Assembly (NCBI GenBank): GCA_902796895.1
Contig: CADBQV010000074.1
Location: 1-13,849, forward strand
Reading direction: 5' to 3'
Origin: an uncultured Erysipelotrichaceae bacterium
GTDB lineage: Bacteria > Bacillota_I > Bacilli_A > Acholeplasmatales > Anaeroplasmataceae
DNA length: 13,849 nucleotides
The notes under the pieces are model-generated. The model was not told the origin of the DNA, did no database searches, and saw only the letters and a list, made by a program, of their open reading frames with translations. The translations under genes were made by a program, and so were the position numbers. Shown piece after piece: positions 2,451 to 13,222 of this stretch; within the stretch, counting starts at the first letter, position 1; each line of letters begins with the position of its first letter.

Positions 2451-2476
2451 TTTATATGAAAAAATATGAAAAATTG

Positions 2477-2503
2477 GAGTTTTAAAAAAACTCCTTTTTT
2501 TTC
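2477..2503 (+). terminator. Rho-independent terminator after ychF
   Basis: GGAGTTTT (2477-2484) pairs with AAAACTCC (2488-2495) around an AAA loop and is followed by eight T (2496-2503). It lies 26 nt after the ychF stop and separates it from the SMC operon. Confidence 0.93.
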
Positions 2504-2547: not shown

Positions 2548-2576
2548 TTGAAAAAATGTAAGCGTTTTGATATAAT
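2548..2576 (+). promoter_or_regulatory. Strong extended -10 promoter for the SMC-sepF operon
   Basis: TTGAAA (2548-2553) and TATAAT (2571-2576) are 17 bp apart, and TG at 2568-2569 makes an extended -10. A-rich tracts at 2518-2522 and 2528-2533, about 10 bp apart, could act as an UP-like element. Transcription would start near 2583, leaving a leader of about 34 nt with the SD AAGGGAG at 2601-2607. Confidence 0.85.
2557..2570 (+). promoter_or_regulatory. cre-like site in the promoter spacer
   Basis: TGTAAGCGTTTTGA matches the CcpA-site consensus TGWAARCGYTWNCW at 13 of 14 positions; only the C near the 3' end is replaced by G. It sits between the -35 and -10 boxes, where a bound CcpA would block transcription. 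CcpA is not encoded in this window, so a functional cre is inferred only. Confidence 0.4.
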
Positions 2577-2616
2577 ATACAATGTATATTAAATATTAAT
2601 AAGGGAGATATGAATT

Positions 2617-4038
2617 ATGGATTTTTTTAATATGGTTCCAGATAGCTTTTTCTCTTTATTAGCATCAAAAAATAAAAGAATTTATCTAGCGAGTATACTA
2701 CAGGTCTTCAAGGTTTATGAAACAGGAACTATTCTAGGTATCGACAAAAAAATCGTTGTTGATGACTTAGTATTCTTCTACGATACTAATTCCAATTATT
2801 TGTTTGAAGTTGAAGATTTAGAGGATGAAGAATCTAACCCACAAAACAAAAGAGAGTTAGCAAATTATGTTTTAAGAAGAATGGAAGAATGCGGATGGAT
2901 TTATGTAGATGTAACTAATGACTACATGGAAGTTTTAAACTTCTCAGATGTTGCTATTACATTATGTGAAGCTATCTTAAATGCTTATCCACAATTCGAA
3001 TATAGCGATGAGGATTTACCAGTTGATTTTGTAAATCCAAACGAGTACCAAGGCTATATTTATGAAATATATACTTTGTTAAATCAAAAGGACAATGTTG
3101 AATATGCAATTACATTCGATTTAGTTTATTCTAATACTAGAAAATTAATTCGTGCTATTAGAAGATTAGATGCAAGAATGAAAGAATATATTCAATCAGT
3201 AATTGATAATACTGAAATTAAAGATTTAATGGAAAAATTAATTGCTTATAAAAATGATATTTACGATAAGAGCTATGTTAAATTAAAAGTCTCTGATAAT
3301 ATCGATAGATATAGATTAAGTATCGTTACAACTCTTGAAAATTTCCAAGAGGATAGAAGTATTGTTCAAGCAATATCTAATAACTATCTTCCACAATGTA
3401 ATAGTCAAGAAGAAGCAATGATGAAGACTGTTAGATATATTGATGAAGTTGTTGATGCATTCAATGCAATTGAAGACTTTATTACTGAAATAGATAACAA
3501 AAATAGAAATTATATCAATTCAACAATTGGTAAGATTAAATTCTTACTTGCTGAGGATGATAATATTGTTGGTAAGATCAATACAATATTAAAGCATGTT
3601 AAGAATCAAAATAAGAAAGGTAAGCTTGATAAATCAATGCGTCTTGTTGATACATTATATCACTTCCCTAATCTTAAGGTATTTGATCAAGAAAGATCAT
3701 TATATCAACCAAGAGGTAGATATGCAAAAACTGAAGGAGGAATCCTTGAGGATGTATGGATCGATGGATTTGATATTAATGATGAAGAATTCATGTCACA
3801 ATTTACTCAAGCATATGACGAAGAAGAGATTGCAGCATTCTTATTAAGATATATGCAAGATGGTGTATTTAAAGCAAGCTTTGTTATAGATGAAAATTGT
3901 AGTGATTCAGATTTCTTAATGGTTGTATACTGCATAATCTATGCAGCAGAAAATGATTATGAAGTCGAAATTTTAGATAGCATTGTTGAAACTGAAACAT
4001 TTGCTATGAAGGATTTCAAAATATATAAGGTTAAATAA
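2617..4038 (+). CDS. jetA: JetA/MukF-like kleisin subunit of a Wadjet-type SMC complex
   Basis: Predicted kleisin that bridges the two heads of the SMC ATPase encoded downstream. The 473-residue soluble protein has no signal peptide. The start, MDFFNMVPDSFFSLLASKNK followed by IYLASILQVFKVYE and ILGID, matches from memory the start of Wadjet JetA proteins, a family once called DUF5716. Residues about 1-110 look like winged-helix dimerisation modules. A long helical middle (about 130-340) comes next, then an acidic C-terminal part (EEFMSQFTQAYDEEEIAAFLLRYM) that would hold the C-terminal winged helix binding the ATPase head. The ATG at 2617 has GGGAG 9 nt upstream. Neighbours support the call: a JetB-like gene 12 nt downstream and an SMC gene after it. 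Codon use resembles the flanking genes, with no sign of recent transfer. The exact type assignment is less certain than the MukF-like role. Confidence 0.75.
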   Translation: MDFFNMVPDSFFSLLASKNKRIYLASILQVFKVYETGTILGIDKKIVVDDLVFFYDTNSNYLFEVEDLEDEESNPQNKRELANYVLRRMEECGWIYVDVTNDYMEVLNFSDVAITLCEAILNAYPQFEYSDEDLPVDFVNPNEYQGYIYEIYTLLNQKDNVEYAITFDLVYSNTRKLIRAIRRLDARMKEYIQSVIDNTEIKDLMEKLIAYKNDIYDKSYVKLKVSDNIDRYRLSIVTTLENFQEDRSIVQAISNNYLPQCNSQEEAMMKTVRYIDEVVDAFNAIEDFITEIDNKNRNYINSTIGKIKFLLAEDDNIVGKINTILKHVKNQNKKGKLDKSMRLVDTLYHFPNLKVFDQERSLYQPRGRYAKTEGGILEDVWIDGFDINDEEFMSQFTQAYDEEEIAAFLLRYMQDGVFKASFVIDENCSDSDFLMVVYCIIYAAENDYEVEILDSIVETETFAMKDFKIYKVK

Positions 4039-4050
4039 TAGGAGAGAGAC

Positions 4051-4635
4051 ATGTTAGAAGCACTTGAAAAAATGAGTACAACTCAACAAGAACAATTTAA
4101 AGATACAGCAAATAAGATTTTACAATGTACTTTCTTATCTAGAGATAAAAAAGATAATCGTGAAGCTTATTATTTCTTAATGAGCTATAAACAAATATTC
4201 GATGATTTCTTTAAAATCTTAGGATATGAAATAACTTTAGATATGGCATCAGGTAGTGTAATGCTTACTGGACCTAATGCTCAAACAGTTATGAAATTAA
4301 AAAGAGATGAAACATTAATTTTATTAATCCTTCGTCTTTTATATCATGAAAAAATGAAAGATACATCATTAAATGAAAATATCGTATGTTCTATTTCTGA
4401 TATTCATGAAAAATATGATTATCTTGAAATTAAAAAGAAATTAAATAAAACTGATTTAGTTTCTGCATTAAGATTATATAGAAGAATTAATTTAATCGAA
4501 GCTACTGGTGATTTAACAACTTCAGCATGTAAAATTGTTATTCTTCCTACAATATTAATGGCTATCAAATCTGAAGATATTACAGAAGTAGTAAATACAA
4601 TTAATAGAATTAACGTTGAGGAGGCTGCTGAATAA
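4051..4635 (+). CDS. jetB: JetB/MukE-like accessory subunit of the SMC complex
   Basis: Predicted KITE-type (MukE-like) winged-helix protein that binds the kleisin and helps load the SMC ring on DNA. The 194-residue acidic protein has a helical N-terminal half. Its core segment (DETLILLILRLLYHEKM, then a winged-helix pattern ending in RLYRRINLIEATGD) is typical of MukE/JetB proteins, where a dedicated helix precedes the winged helix. The family I have in mind is the Wadjet JetB group formerly called DUF6063, but I assign it mainly by position between jetA and the SMC gene. AGGAG at 4040-4044 serves the ATG at 4051. The TAA stop (4633-4635) overlaps the ATG of the next gene by one base (TAATG), which suggests translational coupling and fixed stoichiometry. 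Confidence 0.7.
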   Translation: MLEALEKMSTTQQEQFKDTANKILQCTFLSRDKKDNREAYYFLMSYKQIFDDFFKILGYEITLDMASGSVMLTGPNAQTVMKLKRDETLILLILRLLYHEKMKDTSLNENIVCSISDIHEKYDYLEIKKKLNKTDLVSALRLYRRINLIEATGDLTTSACKIVILPTILMAIKSEDITEVVNTINRINVEEAAE

Positions 4636-7600
4636 TGAAAAAATTAGTTAAGGTTAGATTAATAAACTGGCATTACCTTGCAAATGAAACTCTTGAAATT
4701 AATGGTAATACATTACTTACTGGTGCAAACGCATCTGGTAAATCAACAATAATGGATGCTATTACATTTGTTTTAACTGCAGGTGATACAAACTTCAATA
4801 TTGCAGCTAACGAAAAAGGTAAACGTGACTTACGTGGTTATGTAAAATGTAAGCTTGGTATGGATGATAAGGAATATTTAAGAAATGGTGATGTATATGG
4901 CCATATCGCACTTGAATTCCATGATGAAAAAACTGATGCTACATTTACAGTTGGTGCTGTAATTGATGCAACAGGAGATGTTGGTCCTGTTAAAACATTA
5001 TTCTATAGAAGCAGTGATGCAATCAATGATTCAATGTTTATTTCTGATGAAAAGAAAATCTATGATACAGTTGAATTTAGAAAACATAATCCATTCTTTG
5101 AATATTTCTTAACTAAGAAGGAAGCAAAGCGTGGCTTTAGAAATGCATTTGGTTCAATCAATGAAGATTTCTATAGATTAATTCCAAAGGCATTAGCATT
5201 CAAGCCTATTAGTGATGTTAAAGAATTCATTTACCAAAACATCCTTGAAGAAAAAGCAATTGATGTATCTGCAATTCAAGATTCAATTAGAGCTTATAAA
5301 GAATTAGAAATTACATTAAAACAAATTCAAGCTAAGATTTCTGATTTAAGAGAAATTGATGTAGTATATCAAGAAATTGTTAAGATTCAAGAAAATAAAG
5401 CATACATTGAATATTTAATGCATTTATTTGATGTAGAAGCAGTAAAGAATCAAATTATTGATGCTAAAAAGCAAATTGAACGTGAAGAACAATTAAAGAC
5501 ATCAAGACAAAATGATTTATTAGACATTGATAAAGAAAATCAAGCATTACAAGAACGTGCTAGAGAACTTTATAATATGCTTCAAAGCAATGAAACATTT
5601 AAAGCATCTGAATATGTTGATAAAGAAATCGTTAAGACTCAACATAATATTGAATCATTAGAAGAAAATCAACAAGCATTCTTAAAGAGAGTATCTAATT
5701 TTAAGGATATAGTTGCTCAACTTAAGAAATTAGCTAATGAAAAATTATATGGCGATGCAGCTAATATTAATTTATCATTAATTAATCAAAATGCTGTTAA
5801 TGATGCAAAAATTAAATTAACAGATTTCTATAATAGAATTAATGACTTAAAGGATCAAAAGAACCAAAAATTAGGTCAATTACAATTAAAGATTAATGAA
5901 ATAGTTCAAAATATTAATAGAATAAGTGTTGCAGCAAAGAATGCAGGACAAAATAGACGTAATTATCGTCCTGAATTAGTTGGTGTAAAACAAGAAATCG
6001 AAGAATCTTTAAAGAGAATTTATAATTATGATATTTCAGTTCATGTATTCTGTGAACTTTGTGAAATTACTGATCCTAAATGGGCAGATACAGTTGAAAT
6101 TTTCTTAGGTAATAGAAGATTTAATTTAATTGTTGAACCAAGATATTATGATCAAGCATTACAAATATTTGCAAGAATTAAAGATAAATATAGATTATAT
6201 GGTATTGGTTTAGTTAATACTAAGCAAATTTCTAAGTTTAAAACATTTGAACCTCAATCAATCGCATCAATCCTAGATTGTGAAAACCAAGATGCAAGAT
6301 GCTATGCAAATTCTATTGCTGGTTCAGTAATTATGGTTGATAATGAATTAGAACTAGAAAAATATCCTACATCTATTACAAATGATGGATTAATTTATAG
6401 AGGATTCTCTGTTACTGCATTAAATCCAAATGTTGAAAAACCATTCATTGGTAAAAATGCTGCTGCAAGAAGCCAAGCTGATTTAATTCAACAAGCTCAA
6501 GAAGCTAAATCTCAATATGGTAATTTAAAAGAACAATATGATAACTTAGAAGCAGAAATTCAATTAGTTAACCGTGTTGAAGTTAGAACTTTAATTGAAG
6601 ATTTAGACAAAGCATTATTATTAGAGAAGGAAAAAGCTACATTAATTGACTTAAAGCATCAAGCTAAACGTCAAAAGAATGCAACTCCAACTGAACTTGA
6701 AGATGATTATGAAAAGGTTCAAGAAACAATTAAAGCAAACGAAAACAAGAAGAATGAAACTTTAATTAGTATTGGTGCAATTAATACTAAGATTGCAAGC
6801 TTACGTCAAACAATCAATGAAAAGGAAGACGAATTAGTTAAGCTTCAAAATGAATTAAAGGAATTAGCTGGTGACAATGCTGTAATTGTAGAAAGAGCTA
6901 AAGAAGAATATAAGCAAATTATTGCTGGTCAAAGCTTTAAGCAAGCATTAGCTGCATATCAAGAAAGATATAATTCAGAAGAATCAAATTATCAAACATT
7001 ACAAGAGCATGTTACTACAATGCAATATGCTTATATCAACAAATATAATTCAACATTATCTGTTGGTTTAGCTGAAATGCCTAAATTTGAAGCTGAATTA
7101 AATAAACTTGAAAAGAGTGAATTAATTACTTATGAAAAGAAAGTAAGAGAAGCTCGTGAAGCAGCTGAAGTAGTATTCAAGGAAGATTTCATTGCTAAAT
7201 TAAGAAATAATATCTTAACAGCTGAACAAGAAATCTCTAAGATTAATGAAACATTATCTAATATTAAATTCGGTAATGATAAATATGAATTCATATTCCC
7301 AAGAAGTAGCGAATATGCAGAGTTCTATGATATGGTTACATCAGAATTAGTAGATATTAATCAAGGATTGTTCACATATGATTTCCAAAATAAATATGAT
7401 GAACAAATTAGAGAATTATTCGAAAGCTTAACTACAGATGAATTAAATAGCAATGGTGCTTTAAATAAATTTACTGATTATCGTACATATATGGATTACG
7501 ATATTAGAATTACTAATAACGATGGTCAAACAATGACTTATTCTAAAGTATTCAAAGAAAAATCAGGTGGTGAAACACAGGTTCCATTCTATGTTGCAAT

Positions 7601-7874
7601 AGTTGCTTCATTTGTTAGAGTTTATACAAAGAGTGGCTTTGGTGGTGGAGATCCAATTGGTATTATCATGTTCGATGAGGTATTCGATAAGATGGATGCT
7701 AACCGTATGCGTGCTATGATGTCATTCATTTCATCTATGCCACTACAAGTAATCATCGCATGTCCTCCACAAAGAATGAATATTTTGGAAGATTATGTAG
7801 ATACAACATTTGTAATGTATCGTAAGGGTACAAAAGCTAAAGTTGCTACATTATCAAGAAAAGAAAATAACTAG
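4635..7874 (+). CDS. jetC: SMC-like ATPase, JetC/MukB type
   Basis: Motor subunit of the complex: an ATP-driven, DNA-loop-extruding SMC protein. The 1079-residue length suits JetC. It has N-terminal Walker A GANASGKST (residues 30-38, K36), an ABC signature KSGGE (976-980), and Walker B IIMFDEVFD with D1014 and the catalytic E1015. All ATPase residues look intact. Two long coiled-coil arms (about 225-440 and 620-900, rich in Glu, Lys, Gln and Asn) flank a hinge-like globular part at about 445-615. The hinge contains HVFCELCEITDPKWADTVEI and LIVEPRYYDQALQIFARIKD. The start LVKVRLINWHYLANETLEI is the usual JetC/MukB opening strand. GAGGAGG at 4618-4624 is the SD, inside jetB. It is not the canonical chromosomal Smc, since the kleisin/KITE genes beside it are MukFE-like rather than ScpAB. 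A JetD (topoisomerase VI/Toprim-like nuclease) is not found downstream. Confidence 0.88.
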   Translation: MKKLVKVRLINWHYLANETLEINGNTLLTGANASGKSTIMDAITFVLTAGDTNFNIAANEKGKRDLRGYVKCKLGMDDKEYLRNGDVYGHIALEFHDEKTDATFTVGAVIDATGDVGPVKTLFYRSSDAINDSMFISDEKKIYDTVEFRKHNPFFEYFLTKKEAKRGFRNAFGSINEDFYRLIPKALAFKPISDVKEFIYQNILEEKAIDVSAIQDSIRAYKELEITLKQIQAKISDLREIDVVYQEIVKIQENKAYIEYLMHLFDVEAVKNQIIDAKKQIEREEQLKTSRQNDLLDIDKENQALQERARELYNMLQSNETFKASEYVDKEIVKTQHNIESLEENQQAFLKRVSNFKDIVAQLKKLANEKLYGDAANINLSLINQNAVNDAKIKLTDFYNRINDLKDQKNQKLGQLQLKINEIVQNINRISVAAKNAGQNRRNYRPELVGVKQEIEESLKRIYNYDISVHVFCELCEITDPKWADTVEIFLGNRRFNLIVEPRYYDQALQIFARIKDKYRLYGIGLVNTKQISKFKTFEPQSIASILDCENQDARCYANSIAGSVIMVDNELELEKYPTSITNDGLIYRGFSVTALNPNVEKPFIGKNAAARSQADLIQQAQEAKSQYGNLKEQYDNLEAEIQLVNRVEVRTLIEDLDKALLLEKEKATLIDLKHQAKRQKNATPTELEDDYEKVQETIKANENKKNETLISIGAINTKIASLRQTINEKEDELVKLQNELKELAGDNAVIVERAKEEYKQIIAGQSFKQALAAYQERYNSEESNYQTLQEHVTTMQYAYINKYNSTLSVGLAEMPKFEAELNKLEKSELITYEKKVREAREAAEVVFKEDFIAKLRNNILTAEQEISKINETLSNIKFGNDKYEFIFPRSSEYAEFYDMVTSELVDINQGLFTYDFQNKYDEQIRELFESLTTDELNSNGALNKFTDYRTYMDYDIRITNNDGQTMTYSKVFKEKSGGETQVPFYVAIVASFVRVYTKSGFGGGDPIGIIMFDEVFDKMDANRMRAMMSFISSMPLQVIIACPPQRMNILEDYVDTTFVMYRKGTKAKVATLSRKENN

Positions 7875-7884
7875 GAGGTAATAT

Positions 7885-8226
7885 ATGCTTTTTAGCAAAA
7901 AGAAAGTCGATGAAGAAATCGAAGAAGAAGTTGAAGAAGTAGGTAAAGCCTCTGATAGAATTCAATTTGCTCAGTTCAAAGGTGATGATGATAAATATGC
8001 ACTTTCTCTTGTGAGAAATATAAGAGATGGTGTACCTATCATTATCAACTTTGAAAGAGTTGATGAAACAGTAGCAAATAAATATATTGCATTTTTCATT
8101 GGTGCCCTAGCTGTTCTTGACAGTAGACCAGTAGTTATAAATGACAATACATATTTGTTTAGTAAGAAGGAAAATTTCTTTGATGGATCATTAAGAGAAT
8201 TCATTGACAATATTCCTAAAAATTAA
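7885..8226 (+). CDS. sepF: SepF-like cell division protein (short form)
   Basis: SepF binds the FtsZ C-terminus, polymerises and tethers the Z-ring to the membrane. This 113-residue protein carries the SepF (DUF552) core at about residues 35-105: VPIIINFERVDETVANKYIA corresponds to the VVVNLxRIxxDxAKRIxDFL strand-helix, FFIGALAVLD to the dimer-forming FLSGTVYAIGG, and VVINDNTYLFSK to the last strand. It is shorter than B. subtilis SepF (about 150). The N-terminus MLFSKKKVDEEIEEEVEEV has only a very short hydrophobic/basic start before an acidic run, so the usual amphipathic membrane-targeting helix is weak or missing. A strong SD, AGGAGGT (7873-7879), overlaps the jetC stop codon, and the gap is only 10 nt. 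This ties the gene to the SMC operon. No terminator was seen after it. Confidence 0.8.
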   Translation: MLFSKKKVDEEIEEEVEEVGKASDRIQFAQFKGDDDKYALSLVRNIRDGVPIIINFERVDETVANKYIAFFIGALAVLDSRPVVINDNTYLFSKKENFFDGSLREFIDNIPKN

Positions 8227-8310: not shown

Positions 8311-9666
8311 ATGAAAATGAAAAAATATTTAGTAGCAGCTAGTGCTTTAGCATTATGTGGTGCTGCAACAGTTTTATCATCTTGTGGTGGTAATAATACA
8401 GCTAAAGTAGAATATGTTGACGCTGAAGGTAAGACTCAAACAGTTGAAGTAAAAGCAACTGAAGATTCTACTGAAGTATCAAAAGCAGTTTATGCTTATG
8501 TACAAAATCAAACATCAAAAAATAGAGCAATTCCTTCTGAATTATCTTTAAATGTTTCAGAAGAAGTTTCTGTATCAGGAAAGACTGCTAAAAATAGCGA
8601 TTTAATGAATTTAATTAGTATGTTAGTTAATGGTCCAGCTAGAGCTGAAAAAGTTTTAGCTCCACTTAGCTTAGAAGGCGATGGTGCTTCAATGCCTGCA
8701 TTAACTAATCCATTTAGTTTATCTGAAAAATTAACAGCTAATGTATCTGTTAAGATTCCTACAGTTACTGTAGATGTAAAAGATAAATCTGCAGAAGAAG
8801 CTCAAAAAGAAATGGCTGAAAAAGGAAAAGCATTCTTAAAAGGTATTGAAGCTTCTGCAAATGTTAATGTAGAGACTAAGATCCCTGATGTTGCTGCATT
8901 TGTTAATGCAATGTCTACTGAAGGTGCTGATATTGATGCAGTTTCATTAGAAGGCAAAAAAGAAATGAAAGCAACTATCCAAGCTTATTTAAAGGATTTA
9001 AATGCAGTTGTTAAAACTTCTGGTAATTTAGAAGCTTCATATTTCCAAACAATTCCATATGTTTCTGAATATGGTGATTTAATTGGTGAATTATTAGGAA
9101 CTACAGGAAAAGAATTAAAATTCGATTTCGGTACTAATTTTGCTCAACCAATTGACAGAGTTGCTGCATCAGTTGGTGCTGTACTTGCAAACTTAAATGC
9201 TGCAGATGCTCAAACTTCTGAATTGGCTCCAACAGTTGTTTCTATGGAACAAATTACTGAATTTGTTACTTCTAATAAAGTAGCTATTACTAAAGTTGAT
9301 GGCACTAATGTTACAATTAAATTAACAGGAGCTCCAAGTGCTGTTAATGCTTCATCTTTAGATGGTCTTGAAGTTGTAACATCTGGTGAATCTACTACTA
9401 AATTATCTGATATGGTATTTGAATTAACAGTTAACGTAGCTAATTTAAATTATGCTAAATTAAATATTAGTATGGGTGATTTCTTAACTTCATATGTTAA
9501 ATCAATTCCAGCTGCTTCAACATTTGTAGCTGATTTCAATGCTAAAGTTGATGCTACAGTTGAACTTACTGATAAAGCTAATATTCAAGCATTAACAGCT
9601 TCTGATAAAGCAGTTGATGGTTTCCAATATATTTCTACATTACCATTCTTCAATAAAGTAAAGTAA
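8311..9666 (+). CDS. Secreted lipoprotein of unknown function
   Basis: I do not recognise the family. The N-terminus is a clear lipoprotein signal: MKMKKYL, a hydrophobic stretch (residues 6-22) and lipobox LSSC with Cys25, followed by GGNN. The mature protein would therefore be anchored on the outer face of the membrane. It holds about 425 residues, with no Cys after Cys25 and no Trp, and is rich in Ala, Val, Thr, Ser and Asn. Alternating strand-like segments (LSLNVSEEVSVSG, LTANVSVKIPTVTVDV, ASANVNVETKIPDV, VTIKLTG, FELTVNVANL) suggest a beta-rich fold. A pattern SYxx(S/T)IPxxSx(Y/F) occurs at residue 243 and again at 394, hinting at an internal duplication. No transmembrane helix or enzyme motif was found. 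ATG 8311 is 12 nt from its SD; the in-frame ATG at 8317 would be less well placed. The gene has its own promoter and terminator and is probably well expressed. Confidence 0.85.
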   Translation: MKMKKYLVAASALALCGAATVLSSCGGNNTAKVEYVDAEGKTQTVEVKATEDSTEVSKAVYAYVQNQTSKNRAIPSELSLNVSEEVSVSGKTAKNSDLMNLISMLVNGPARAEKVLAPLSLEGDGASMPALTNPFSLSEKLTANVSVKIPTVTVDVKDKSAEEAQKEMAEKGKAFLKGIEASANVNVETKIPDVAAFVNAMSTEGADIDAVSLEGKKEMKATIQAYLKDLNAVVKTSGNLEASYFQTIPYVSEYGDLIGELLGTTGKELKFDFGTNFAQPIDRVAASVGAVLANLNAADAQTSELAPTVVSMEQITEFVTSNKVAITKVDGTNVTIKLTGAPSAVNASSLDGLEVVTSGESTTKLSDMVFELTVNVANLNYAKLNISMGDFLTSYVKSIPAASTFVADFNAKVDATVELTDKANIQALTASDKAVDGFQYISTLPFFNKVK

Positions 9667-10312: not shown

Positions 10313-11405
10313 TAGAATATGTAAAGGTTGTGGTGCTACACTTCAATCTGATGATAAAAATTTAATGGGCTTTGTACCTGAAATAAATTCAAAAAGCTTA
10401 TATTGTCAAAGATGCTTTAGAATGATGCATTACAATGAATTACCAAAAATAGTAGCTAAATCTAGCGATTATGAACATGTAATTGATGAAGTAATAGCTA
10501 AAAATGGTTTAGTTGTATTTGTTGTAGATATATTTGCATTTAAAGCTACATTTAACAAAAAAATGATAGATAAATTAAGAGAAAAAAATGTAATATTAGT
10601 TGCTAATAAATATGATGTATTTCCACATAGTACTAATGTAGCAAATATAGTTGAATGGTTAAGTAAGGAATGCGAAAAAATCTTCTTTAAGGTAGATGCA
10701 ATTCATATTGTATCATCTAAAAAAGGATATTTTATTGATGATTTAACTAATACAATAGATATGCTTAGATTTGGTCGTGATGTTTATTTTTTAGGCTGTG
10801 CTAATGTTGGTAAATCTTCCCTTATAAATGCTATATTAAAAAGAAATACAAGCATTACTAAAGATGTAATATCTACAAGCGTAATTCCTGGTACTACACT
10901 AAAATCAATAAATATTCAGTTTTTTGATGATGGAAAATATTTAATAGATACTCCAGGCTTAATTAATGATAATGATATATTAAATAAATTACTTCCAAAA
11001 AGCTATGATAAAATATTGCCTAAGGATGAAATGAAGCCTAGAACATATCAAATATTAACTGATAATTCAATCTTTTTAGCAGGTCTTGCATCAATCGATT
11101 TTACATGTGAAGATAAATTATCAGTAATAGTTTATACATCAAATGACTTATATATTCATAGATGTAAAACAAAAAGAGTTGAAGAATTATATCAAAATGA
11201 ATTAGGAAAATTATTAAATCCTCCTTTAATTGATGAAATTAATAATATTAAATATGAAATAACTGAATTTGATTTTGATGGAAAAATGAAAAAAGATATT
11301 TGGTTTTCAGGATTTGGCTTTGTATCAATAATTGGTAAATGCCATGTTAGAATAAAACATATTGAAAATAATGAGGTAAAGGTAACAAATGCTATTATCA
11401 GATAA
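10305..11405 (+). CDS. yqeH: YqeH, circularly permuted ribosome-assembly GTPase
   Basis: GTPase needed for assembly of the small ribosomal subunit in Bacillota. The N-terminal zinc finger has C6, C9, C34 and C37 (CKGC and CQRC). The GTPase motifs then come in the permuted order that defines the family: G4 NKYD (101-104), G5 SSKKG (137-141), G1 GCANVGKSS (164-172), G2 PGTT (195-198) and G3 DTPG (215-218). A C-terminal domain of about 140 residues follows, thought to contact RNA or protein. The 366-residue length is normal. An SD, AAGGAG (10287-10292), inside yqeG sits 12 nt before the ATG, and the 8-nt overlap with yqeG implies coupling. Its own 3' end overlaps the next gene by 17 nt. In many Bacillota aroE, yhbY and nadD come next; here they are missing. 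Confidence 0.97.
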   Translation: MIDRICKGCGATLQSDDKNLMGFVPEINSKSLYCQRCFRMMHYNELPKIVAKSSDYEHVIDEVIAKNGLVVFVVDIFAFKATFNKKMIDKLREKNVILVANKYDVFPHSTNVANIVEWLSKECEKIFFKVDAIHIVSSKKGYFIDDLTNTIDMLRFGRDVYFLGCANVGKSSLINAILKRNTSITKDVISTSVIPGTTLKSINIQFFDDGKYLIDTPGLINDNDILNKLLPKSYDKILPKDEMKPRTYQILTDNSIFLAGLASIDFTCEDKLSVIVYTSNDLYIHRCKTKRVEELYQNELGKLLNPPLIDEINNIKYEITEFDFDGKMKKDIWFSGFGFVSIIGKCHVRIKHIENNEVKVTNAIIR

Positions 11406-12291
11406 AGCAAAACAATTAGTAGAAGAAAAATATAAAGATAATCATAAAGATAGATTAGAACATATCTATGGTGTAGTTGAAATGGCTACATACCTAGCAG
11501 AAAAATATAATGTCGATATAGAAAAAGCTAAGATTGCTGCTTATATGCATGATTATTCTAAATATGATGACTTTGATACAGCAGCACTATATTTAGATGA
11601 TAAAGATATAAAAGAATGCGAAAAATACCCATTTTTATTCCATGCTTATCTATCAGCTGAAGCATATATAAGATTACTTGGAAGTGATATGGATATATAT
11701 AATGCAATTAGATATCATGTCTTTGGTAGAGAAAAAATGAGTATGTTAGAAGCAATTATAATGATTGCTGATTATACAGAAAAAAATAGAAAATATAAAG
11801 AATGCATAGAAACAAGAAAAATATTACTTGAAGGTAATTTTAATTTAGCAATTTATAAATCATTAGAAAATACAATTAATCATTGCAAGGAAAAAGGAGA
11901 AGAAGCTCATCCTATGCAATTATTAGTATTTGAAGAATATAAAAGAAAAATTCAAAATTTATCTAAAATAGATTTAATAATTGATGCAATCTCTAAAGTA
12001 AAAGCTCATGATATTATCATATATGATTCAAAATATAAAAATCCATTTTATGATAATATAATAATCGCATCTGTAGATTCTAAAAAACAAGCTACAGCTG
12101 CTATATCTTATGTATATGATAGATTAAAAGAAAATAATTATTTAATAAGAAATACAGAAGGATATGATACAGAATGGGTATTAATAGATATGTATGATGT
12201 AATATTATCTATTTTTACAAATGATGAAAGAAAACATTTTGAATTAGAAAAAATATATATGGAATACCCTAAAAAAGAAATAAAGATATAG
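11389..12291 (+). CDS. yqeK-rsfS: YqeK-RsfS fusion: HD-domain dinucleoside polyphosphatase plus ribosomal silencing factor
   Basis: Two normally separate neighbouring genes are one open frame of 300 codons. Residues 1 to about 188 are a YqeK-type HD hydrolase, a family that splits Ap4A symmetrically to ADP. Metal-site residues H25, H54-D55, H85, H110 (AIRYHVFG) and D128 (IADYTEKNR) are all present. Residues about 191-290 are RsfS (DUF143, YqeL), which binds uL14 and blocks subunit joining in starved cells. Recognisable parts are HDIIIYDSKYKNPFYDNIII, SKKQATAAISYVYDRL and TEWVLIDMYDVILSIFTNDE. The linker (HPMQLLVFEEYKRKIQN) contains no stop or frameshift. The start ATG overlaps yqeH by 17 nt, with GAGGTAAAGG (11373-11382) as SD. 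The TAG stop lies in a terminator stem. The fusion call is firm at domain level; whether the product is later cleaved cannot be seen. Confidence 0.88.
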   Translation: MLLSDKAKQLVEEKYKDNHKDRLEHIYGVVEMATYLAEKYNVDIEKAKIAAYMHDYSKYDDFDTAALYLDDKDIKECEKYPFLFHAYLSAEAYIRLLGSDMDIYNAIRYHVFGREKMSMLEAIIMIADYTEKNRKYKECIETRKILLEGNFNLAIYKSLENTINHCKEKGEEAHPMQLLVFEEYKRKIQNLSKIDLIIDAISKVKAHDIIIYDSKYKNPFYDNIIIASVDSKKQATAAISYVYDRLKENNYLIRNTEGYDTEWVLIDMYDVILSIFTNDERKHFELEKIYMEYPKKEIKI

Positions 12292-12309
12292 CGAACTATA
12301 TCTTTTTTT
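12282..12309. terminator. Bidirectional terminator between convergent genes
   Basis: A perfect 10-bp stem (12282-12291 with 12296-12305) closes a CGAA loop, followed by T at 12303-12309 on the plus strand. Read on the minus strand it is followed by TTATTTCTTTTTT-type sequence (complement of about 12271-12281), so it can stop both transcripts. The TAG stops of the two genes pair with each other inside the stem. Confidence 0.85.
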
Positions 12310-13099
12310 CATCTTTTATATTATAATATTTTCTTATTTTTTTATCATCATGATTAAATAAATAATCATTGATAACATTAATTTCAGTTAATATATCTTT
12401 TATAATTAATTCATTAAATTCATCTAATGAATAATTATAATTTTTATTATTTAAAGTAAATACATTATTTCCTAAATTCAAAATAGAAGTATCTATTTTT
12501 TTATCATATTTTATTTCATTCATTTTATATTTTTTATATTTAAAATGATATTTATTTTTATAAAATTTATTCATGTTTTTATATGATTTATTAAAATAAT
12601 TTAATGTACCAAAGAATTTAAATAATTTTACAAATGGATATTTAATTAATTCATTATATATCGGATTAAATTTAAATTTAATATTATAATGCTTAATTAT
12701 AGATTCATTGAATAAATTAAAATCTTCTTTACTAGATAGATATGAATCTATCATATTATAGTTATATAATTTTGATGTTTCAAATAACATAAAATATGAA
12801 TTATAATATTCATTAATTTTTTTATTTGTTACTAAAGAATAAATAAATAATAATTTATTAAAATCATTATGCTTTTCAATACTTATTAAAGATTCAATTA
12901 ATAAATCAGATAAATTATCATTTATTTTATTATATAAGTCATATTTATCTTTTTTAAGCTTATTAAAGAATAAAGCAGATGTTGTAAATGATATAGAATT
13001 AAATAATAAATTATCATCTATATCAATATTAATAATTGATTTATCAATATTATTTATTGTATTTTTAAAAATATAATACCTAAGAAATAATCCATCCAT
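12296..13099 (-). CDS. Divergent zinc-dependent phospholipase C-like protein, metal ligands apparently lost
   Basis: A 267-residue protein extremely rich in Asn, Lys, Ile, Tyr and Phe, with more AT-rich DNA than its neighbours. The layout resembles, from memory, the zinc-dependent phospholipase C family. A segment like the GxQGPD..FF motif appears as FNSISFTTSALFF (33-45), and a long helix ESLISIEKHNDF precedes FIYSLVTNKKINEYYNSYF (85-103). Family members carry GFxxHxxLDxxxHPY there. Near the C-terminus, DTSILNLGNNVF then YSLDEFNELIIKDILTEINVIN recalls the family's LNLxHxxW...SFxxLYxxA helix. At the positions of the usual His/Asp ligands Asn is found (N92, N96, N100), so it is probably not an active enzyme. 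I chose the ATG at 13099 because AAAGG lies 8 nt upstream; an in-frame ATG at 13135 has no SD. No signal peptide. The family call is tentative; that it is a gene is fairly sure. Confidence 0.5.
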   Translation of the reverse strand: MDGLFLRYYIFKNTINNIDKSIINIDIDDNLLFNSISFTTSALFFNKLKKDKYDLYNKINDNLSDLLIESLISIEKHNDFNKLLFIYSLVTNKKINEYYNSYFMLFETSKLYNYNMIDSYLSSKEDFNLFNESIIKHYNIKFKFNPIYNELIKYPFVKLFKFFGTLNYFNKSYKNMNKFYKNKYHFKYKKYKMNEIKYDKKIDTSILNLGNNVFTLNNKNYNYSLDEFNELIIKDILTEINVINDYLFNHDDKKIRKYYNIKDEKKI

Positions 13100-13109
13100 A
13101 ATAAAAACC

Positions 13110-13132
13110 TTTATAAAGTATAACTTTATAAA
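13110..13132. promoter_or_regulatory. 23-bp palindrome at the minus-strand gene's predicted start point (candidate operator)
   Basis: Arms TTTATAAAGT (13110-13119) and ACTTTATAAA (13123-13132) are a perfect inverted repeat around ATA. On the minus strand TATAAT (13139-13134) lies just upstream, so the palindrome covers the expected transcription start and early leader. A weak -35 (TATTAA, 13162-13157) is 17 bp from that -10. No T-run follows, so it is not a terminator. Confidence 0.4.
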
Positions 13133-13222
13133 CATTATAAACTATATTTTGTATTTTTAATAGATAAAATTGTTTAAATTTTATTCTATTTATAGTAAAA
13201 TACTAAAGGCGAGGTGTTTTTA

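Follow-up and report, generated by a model that had tools for sequence, protein, structure and literature searches.

What becomes of a plasmid-cutting machine when its nuclease is missing and a cell division gene stands in its place? This question is raised by four adjoining genes, jetA, jetB, jetC and sepF, in a stretch of 13,849 nucleotides from an uncultured member of the Anaeroplasmataceae (contig CADBQV010000074.1 of assembly GCA_902796895.1; the whole of this stretch is called the window here). In Wadjet systems, JetABC is the motor and sensor of the structural maintenance of chromosomes (SMC) type, and JetD is the cutter, thought to be triggered once a small circle has been extruded completely (PMC10586767, in its accessible part). 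A first-pass annotation of the window, made from the sequence alone, had noted the absence of JetD and proposed that the complex organises the chromosome or couples it to division instead of defending the cell. Its observation is confirmed and its interpretation supported by the comparison reported here: the operon probably encodes a Wadjet motor without nuclease, which would serve the Anaeroplasmataceae as a housekeeping condensin replacing Smc-ScpAB and be co-expressed with the FtsZ anchor SepF.

Identity of the four gene products

The four genes follow each other on the plus strand with spacings of 12, -1 and 10 nt, as taken from the list of open reading frames (ORFs):

2617 to 4038, plus strand: jetA, kleisin subunit of 473 amino acids (aa); PF18982, E 5.2e-68; PADLOC JetA1, 1.1e-106
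4051 to 4635, plus strand: jetB, KITE/MukE-like subunit of 194 aa; PF13835/DUF4194, E 2.2e-28; PADLOC JetB1, 1.3e-57
4635 to 7874, plus strand: jetC, SMC ATPase of 1079 aa; PADLOC JetC1, 2.4e-300; ATPase motifs
4722 to 4745, plus strand: Walker A motif GANASGKS of JetC; coordinates counted from the translation
7885 to 8226, plus strand: sepF, FtsZ membrane anchor of 113 aa; PF04472, 21.6 bits; fold match; family profile

Pfam, PADLOC and the ORFs agree here with the kleisin-like, MukE-like and intact SMC genes that had been noted at these spacings. The third protein is matched in Pfam by SbcC_Walker_B (E 1.3e-23) and AAA_29, and its matches among solved protein chains at E<=1e-5 are JetC chains only, the best being 9qxt and 8as8. 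Besides Walker A, it has the signature motif SGGE and the Walker B motif FDEVFDKMD, and all three motifs are kept in 102 of the 103 full-length JetC sequences collected from all groups. JetB scores exactly at the cut-off of the MksE family PF21980 (27.0 bits) and far better as DUF4194, and JetABC as a whole is nearer in sequence to the JetABC models than to the Muk and Mks models of Pfam and PADLOC. For type I Wadjet, a contact to JetD has been reported for an N-terminal IFDR motif of JetB (PMC10586767, accessible part). Since the JetB proteins of the class that do have a JetD show no clear sign of this motif either, its absence from the JetB of the family is uninformative.

The fourth protein has no match in PADLOC, and its PF04472 score lies under the curated cut-off of 27 bits. 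At the same operon position, 53 of 55 Anaeroplasmataceae genomes pass this cut-off. An AlphaFold2 model of the window's protein, built with 25 sequences, has a mean predicted local distance difference test (pLDDT) score of 86.4 and superimposes on Bacillus subtilis SepF (8hzq/3zih) at 1.3 A, with a template modelling score of 0.81 by target; a profile of the Anaeroplasmataceae proteins finds 3zih by sequence at 3.5e-7. Judged by its predicted fold and by the family hits at the same position, the weakly matching product, earlier described as SepF-like, is a SepF. Its N-terminal residues 4-16, where a membrane-binding helix would be expected, fall below a pLDDT of 50 in the model. The position equivalent to Gly109 of B. 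subtilis is glycine in 25 of 25 aligned sequences and that equivalent to Gly116 in 24 of 25, the sole exception being the window copy, which has Ser80.

Conservation across the Anaeroplasmataceae

The family (f1 in our counts and trees) was represented by 55 genomes, 31 of them of high quality, and its order by 160; individual genomes, loci and families are given by our own numbers (G, L and f) where they need to be told apart. JetA was found in 54 of the 55 genomes, including all 31 of high quality, and the jetA frames of all 54 are free of internal stops; in the sole miss, G046, the end of jetC and sepF stand at a contig start (L172). SepF (PF04472, E<=0.1) was likewise found in 54 of the 55, 53 of them above the curated threshold; no genome has more than one significant copy, the additional matches seen in five genomes having E 0.02 or worse. 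In the genome without a match, G002, the contig ends inside jetC (L173). Lists compared by hand place SepF on one contig with jetA and some 4 kb downstream of it in 50 of 54 genomes; in the remaining four, which have broken contigs (G026, G038, G039 and G046), sepF was seen directly after jetC when the loci were read.

The adjacency of jetC and sepF is therefore family-wide; its restriction to a single genome, which the first-pass annotation had said would count against its proposal, is not what is found. The sequence continues beyond jetC in 26 named loci, and every one of them has sepF as the next gene; the genes further downstream vary. Of 38 loci, all but one have a gap of -23 to +10 nt between jetC and sepF, the exception being 67 nt, where some of the 38 are the same place fetched twice and starts were chosen mechanically. 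Within the family, JetC identity has a median of 66% and a minimum of 45%. The named relatives (28 loci) are mostly Acholeplasmatales or Anaeroplasma assemblies from rumen and gut, including Anaeroplasma bactoclasticum ATCC 27112, which has jetABC-sepF at its locus L034; Bacillales, Clostridium or Erysipelotrichaceae is the label of a few others.

The partner to which a SepF would bind is present as well in most of the family, with FtsZ found in 51 of the 55 genomes, the window's own included, and in 28 of the 31 of high quality. The FtsZ of the window's own genome ends in YPDWLRK, and a C-terminal tail is present in all six FtsZ proteins read (e.g., YPDWLRK, LPSWLRK, IPSWLSKK). Such tail peptides are of the kind bound by SepF and FtsA. 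Anaeroplasmataceae and their relatives presumably have no cell wall. In some genomes of the family (contigs G017:C120, G009:C86 and G003:C6), a divergent FtsZ-like protein of roughly 337 aa occurs in addition to the first.

JetD, Smc and ScpA in the family and order

No JetD (PF11795, PF09983) was found in the window or in its genome, which is 79% complete, in line with the initial reading of the operon. JetD_C occurs in 5 of the 55 family genomes and in 8 of the 160 genomes of the order, and never at the sepF operon. Four of the five family JetDs come immediately after a second, divergent jetABC (L091, L093, L095, L097); the fifth, in G045, is preceded by the end of a different SMC-like gene, at the beginning of a contig (L099). 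Each of these five genomes has its sepF operon at another place (L092, L094, L096, L098, L100). The first-pass annotation had named a jetD elsewhere in the genome, co-occurring with jetABC across relatives, as a finding that would speak against it, and what is found is this minority, in each case beside another SMC gene. In G001 we also observed a decayed second jet operon (L101), in which jetA and jetB are open, JetC is a fragment of 214 aa and no JetD is nearby.

The profile searches for Smc and ScpA that had been suggested at the outset came out negative in the family. Canonical Smc reaches the TIGR02168 cut-off in none of the 55 genomes (10 of 14 control genomes are over it), and ScpA was found in none of the 55 and in none of the 160 genomes of the order (9 of 14 controls positive), in searches that did not include ScpB. 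A canonical Smc hidden below the threshold was considered and rejected: family hits have E 7e-15 or weaker and all stay under the cut-off, the best of them falling at the positions of jetC and the others being short matches to coiled coils or head motifs. Leaving aside the second copies linked to JetD, these searches, made for Smc and ScpA, found no other SMC-type condensin in the family.

Distribution outside the family

The class was sampled with 395 genomes, to which the window's order contributed 55. Smc (E<=1e-60) was found in 180 of the 395, none of which belong to the order, and JetA (E<=1e-10) in 115, of which 44 do. When the two were crossed by hand, 13 genomes had both (in f12, f17 and f22), 167 Smc only, 102 JetA only and 113 neither. 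Smc and JetA thus avoid each other, with Fisher p values of 4e-20 overall and 3e-11 outside the order, both uncorrected for kinship. The order of genes at the loci parallels this division. In all 20 loci read from JetA-bearing, Smc-less genomes outside the order, JetABC is present and JetD is missing, also when matches up to E 10 are admitted; the JetD profile used is one that still finds a proteobacterial JetD at 2e-29. By comparison, the 15 jet loci read from Smc-bearing genomes divide into 9 with JetD and 6 without.

JetABC without JetD is also found in other families of the order, at 16 loci of f2, which we take to be the Acholeplasmataceae, and at 3 loci of f3 and f5. JetABCD occurs in f2 (L077) and in f4 (L089), and f4 further holds a JetC-JetD end (L090). 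At five loci of genus g18 of f2 (L083-L086, L147), jetA stands alone with no JetB or JetC adjoining; g18 is a genus of reduced genomes (0.3-0.9 Mb), presumably phytoplasma-like, and its other genomes have no JetA match. None of the JetD-less loci read from f2, f3, f5, f7, f11, f21, f23, f24, f26 and f27 showed a sepF close to jetC, with the threshold relaxed to E<=10.

In family f12, five loci (L128, L131, L132, L134, L135) from genomes with a canonical Smc hold JetABC without JetD, and two of these genomes, G199 and G216, additionally hold JetABCD (L130, L133). It is possible that f12 represents an intermediate state.

Evolutionary history

For the JetC tree, 66 rows were picked from the 103 full-length sequences, with f1 and f2 thinned and duplicates mostly avoided. 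All sepF-bearing rows fall on one side of a single branch (Shimodaira-Hasegawa-like approximate likelihood ratio test 99). Presence of JetD requires 5 changes on this tree, 4 if two long rows are left out and 7 once plasmid-borne JetABCD rows (Cohnella, Rossellomorea, Butyrivibrio, Erythrobacter) are added, and in a table of groups that also counts Salipiger, 5 changes are forced by well-supported branches; these numbers are soft, because of the long outgroup branches and of a flagged join between long branches. With Erythrobacter and Salipiger as the root, JetD is present in the rows that branch off next. The rooted tree is without L138, L102 and L145, the Salipiger row stands outside the change count, and none of the trees includes the Agathobacter JetC (L166) or the loci whose JetC is truncated. 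Repeated loss of JetD looks like the simplest reading of these trees. The JetD-less groups are f1/f3/f5/f23/f24, f2, f7, f11/f21/f26/f27, one genus of f11, and f12, the last of which carries Smc and falls in one or two places on the JetC tree.

A single loss of JetD in the ancestor of the order was tried and rejected. Forcing f1 (with f3, f5, f23 and f24) and f2 into one clade costs 133 log-likelihood units (approximately unbiased (AU) test, p 1e-71, quick trees), and an earlier test without f23 and f24 also rejects a JetC clade of f1 and f2; the groups were named after the first tree had been seen and long branches are present, so these p-values flatter the result. L138 and L142, which have very long branches, were kept outside the AU tests. 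Even within the order, there were hence probably two recruitments or a transfer.

Within the family, JetC identities track those of YchF (r = 0.91, n = 23), where block inheritance contributes because YchF adjoins the operon, and likewise those of the pyrophosphatase (r = 0.76, n = 20) and of the more distant YqeH (r = 0.77, n = 11). This is as expected for a vertically inherited jetC. The codon use of jetABC, which had been described as like that of its surroundings, correlates with that of five neighbour genes at r = 0.92 (housekeeping control pair 0.94).

Possible function of the operon

A condensin role is suggested by four findings, namely that JetD is gone, that the ATPase motifs are intact, that Smc and ScpA were not found and that the operon is present almost universally in the family. 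JetC dimers bridged by JetA and JetB would be loaded onto the chromosome and use ATP to extrude loops, such that sister chromosomes would be compacted and separated, and in the absence of JetD, the completion of a loop or a collision of motors would have no cutting consequence. We infer from the genomic pattern that JetABC extrudes loops on the chromosome and is essential. Co-expression of sepF with the condensin may help to balance segregation with division. Of the two halves of the first-pass proposal, chromosome organisation thus gains indirect support from the missing Smc and ScpA, and coupling to division is a conjecture to which the conserved operon, FtsZ in most genomes and the kept FtsZ tail would lend themselves.

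Such a replacement has a precedent in MukBEF, which according to the authors of PMC10586767 (accessible part) replaced Smc-ScpAB in its lineage. With MksBEF of Pseudomonas and MukBEF of E. coli, the operon shares an SMC-kleisin-KITE composition without nuclease that here, too, would act on the chromosome, as judged from the genes, but it is nearer to JetABC by sequence and carries sepF. Furthermore, P. aeruginosa has both SMC and MksBEF (PMC7485682, accessible part), unlike the Anaeroplasmataceae with neither Smc nor ScpA found. With type I Wadjet (JetABCD, or MksBEFG), the operon has in common the full-length homology of JetA, JetB and JetC, the gene order, the spacing and an intact SMC ATPase; it differs in lacking JetD, in having sepF in fourth place and in being near-universal and vertically inherited instead of patchy. 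As the linked nuclease and the patchy distribution are both missing, we do not class it as Wadjet, but regard it as a system that shares parts with Wadjet and would work like MksBEF and MukBEF. Smc-ScpAB would have the same presumed role in loop extrusion and sister separation, and is built from other subunit families.

SepF anchors FtsZ to the membrane, and SepF of Spiroplasma helps Spiroplasma FtsZ to form ring-like structures in E. coli cells (PMC11987601, accessible part). The SepF described here has the predicted fold and the conserved core of those of B. subtilis, Corynebacterium glutamicum and Spiroplasma, together with a tailed FtsZ in most of the family, and differs in its place in a condensin operon, its short length and the serine at the Gly116 position. 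A physical link between JetABC and SepF can be imagined, and we regard it as rather doubtful. A more far-reaching version, in which JetABC and SepF form one machine, a nuclease-free loop extruder that SepF fastens to the membrane and the FtsZ ring and that couples segregation to division in wall-less cells, and in which this is one of several independent conversions of Wadjet to condensin that allowed Smc-ScpAB to be lost, appears unlikely to us, if worth stating.

It is about an even call whether JetABC is a housekeeping condensin next to which sepF is a mere passenger, stranded by jetC and kept there for its expression or by chance, with no functional link. The absence of sepF at the JetD-less loci read from ten other families fits this, as does the fact that SepF identities track YchF less (r = 0.44) than those of JetC do (0.91), which is in part due to SepF being short. 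However, the junction is kept in all 26 named loci and in all 54 SepF-matched genomes while the genes further downstream vary, and the near-zero or overlapping gaps suggest translational coupling.

That JetABC is still an anti-plasmid defence, working through an unlinked nuclease or in a non-cutting mode such as plasmid silencing, is a quite improbable alternative to a housekeeping role. JetA, JetB and JetC all match Wadjet models strongly and JetABCD complexes are known plasmid cutters; yet Wadjet is described as sporadic (both PMC10586767, accessible part), as opposed to an operon that is vertically inherited and present in 54 of 55 genomes, and no recruited nuclease is seen beside it. Moreover, the four JetABCD genomes and the fifth, with JetD by another SMC gene, carry these besides the sepF operon. 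The idea of a decaying Wadjet remnant that happened to lose jetD first is close to refuted: JetD is absent, truly decayed material does occur in the second copy L101, and G038 has, close to the beginning of a contig, a jetC broken into two short frames (L168), but such relics are not universal, and the stop-free jetA frames, the ATPase motifs and the JetC identities reported above are not those of a decaying system.

Several observations weigh against the housekeeping condensin that we favour. Both Smc and JetA are missing from 113 class genomes, including 11 of the window's order. Bacteria nearby thus manage without either, the need for a replacement is not proved, and loss of Smc is not always paired with JetA. 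JetD is missing as well from six loci in Smc-bearing genomes (those of f12 named above and L138), and JetABC with no JetD, either annotated or found by profile, is carried by plasmids of Agathobacter rectalis and Salipiger (L166, L167). With respect to SepF, three high-quality genomes in which sepF is present (G026, G037, G042) gave no FtsZ match, be it through an assembly gap or a real loss, and the exchange of Gly116 for serine, the residue found in the window copy, weakens FtsZ binding in B. subtilis SepF (PMC11987601, accessible part).

If a housekeeping condensin is what the operon encodes, it would offer a possible answer to how chromosomes are folded and separated in bacteria without detectable Smc or ScpA. 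Since JetABCD, JetABC beside Smc and JetABC without Smc are all found within one class, the conversion can be read in living relatives, and comparisons between close neighbours can test a switch from defence to housekeeping. A further consequence is that what defence-finder models match as anti-plasmid defence is, in this case, probably a core machine of the chromosome. Among the matches listed, we found no report of a nuclease-free jetABC-sepF arrangement, in a literature search that covered few subscription journals and preprints, such that publication elsewhere is possible; the main text of the Acholeplasma oculi genome paper (PMC4221730) contains none of the terms "smc", "scp", "condens" and "segregation".

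Local signals and neighbouring genes

Two signals precede the operon:

2476 to 2494, plus strand: terminator-like stem 3' of ychF, preceding the promoter-like site; from a consensus scan, which is not evidence of function
2548 to 2576, plus strand: promoter-like TTGAAA-17-TATAAT with TG, upstream of jetA; consensus match 11/12

The operon had been placed behind one strong promoter. The consensus match holds, this site being the best (11/12) of 35 promoter-like sites between 2400 and 8400, but gives no support for strength, as such sites as a class are no commoner than in shuffled sequences (35 found, 41.9 expected), and the promoter is therefore not used as evidence here.

The operon is flanked upstream by genes for a pyrophosphatase and YchF and downstream by those for a 451-aa protein, a HAD hydrolase, YqeH and an HD-RsfS fusion. 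The 451-aa protein (8311-9666) has a lipoprotein-like start and no Pfam family. The only similarity found for it, a weak one, is to proteins encoded at the corresponding position in L031, L032 and L048 (L096 is the place of L048). The HD-domain protein fused to RsfS occupies 11389-12291, and in relatives L035, L037, L040, L043, L049 and L052, the HD and RsfS matches are two separate ORFs. On the minus strand at 12296-13135 lies an ORF of 279 aa that is very rich in Asn, Lys and Ile and has no Pfam match.

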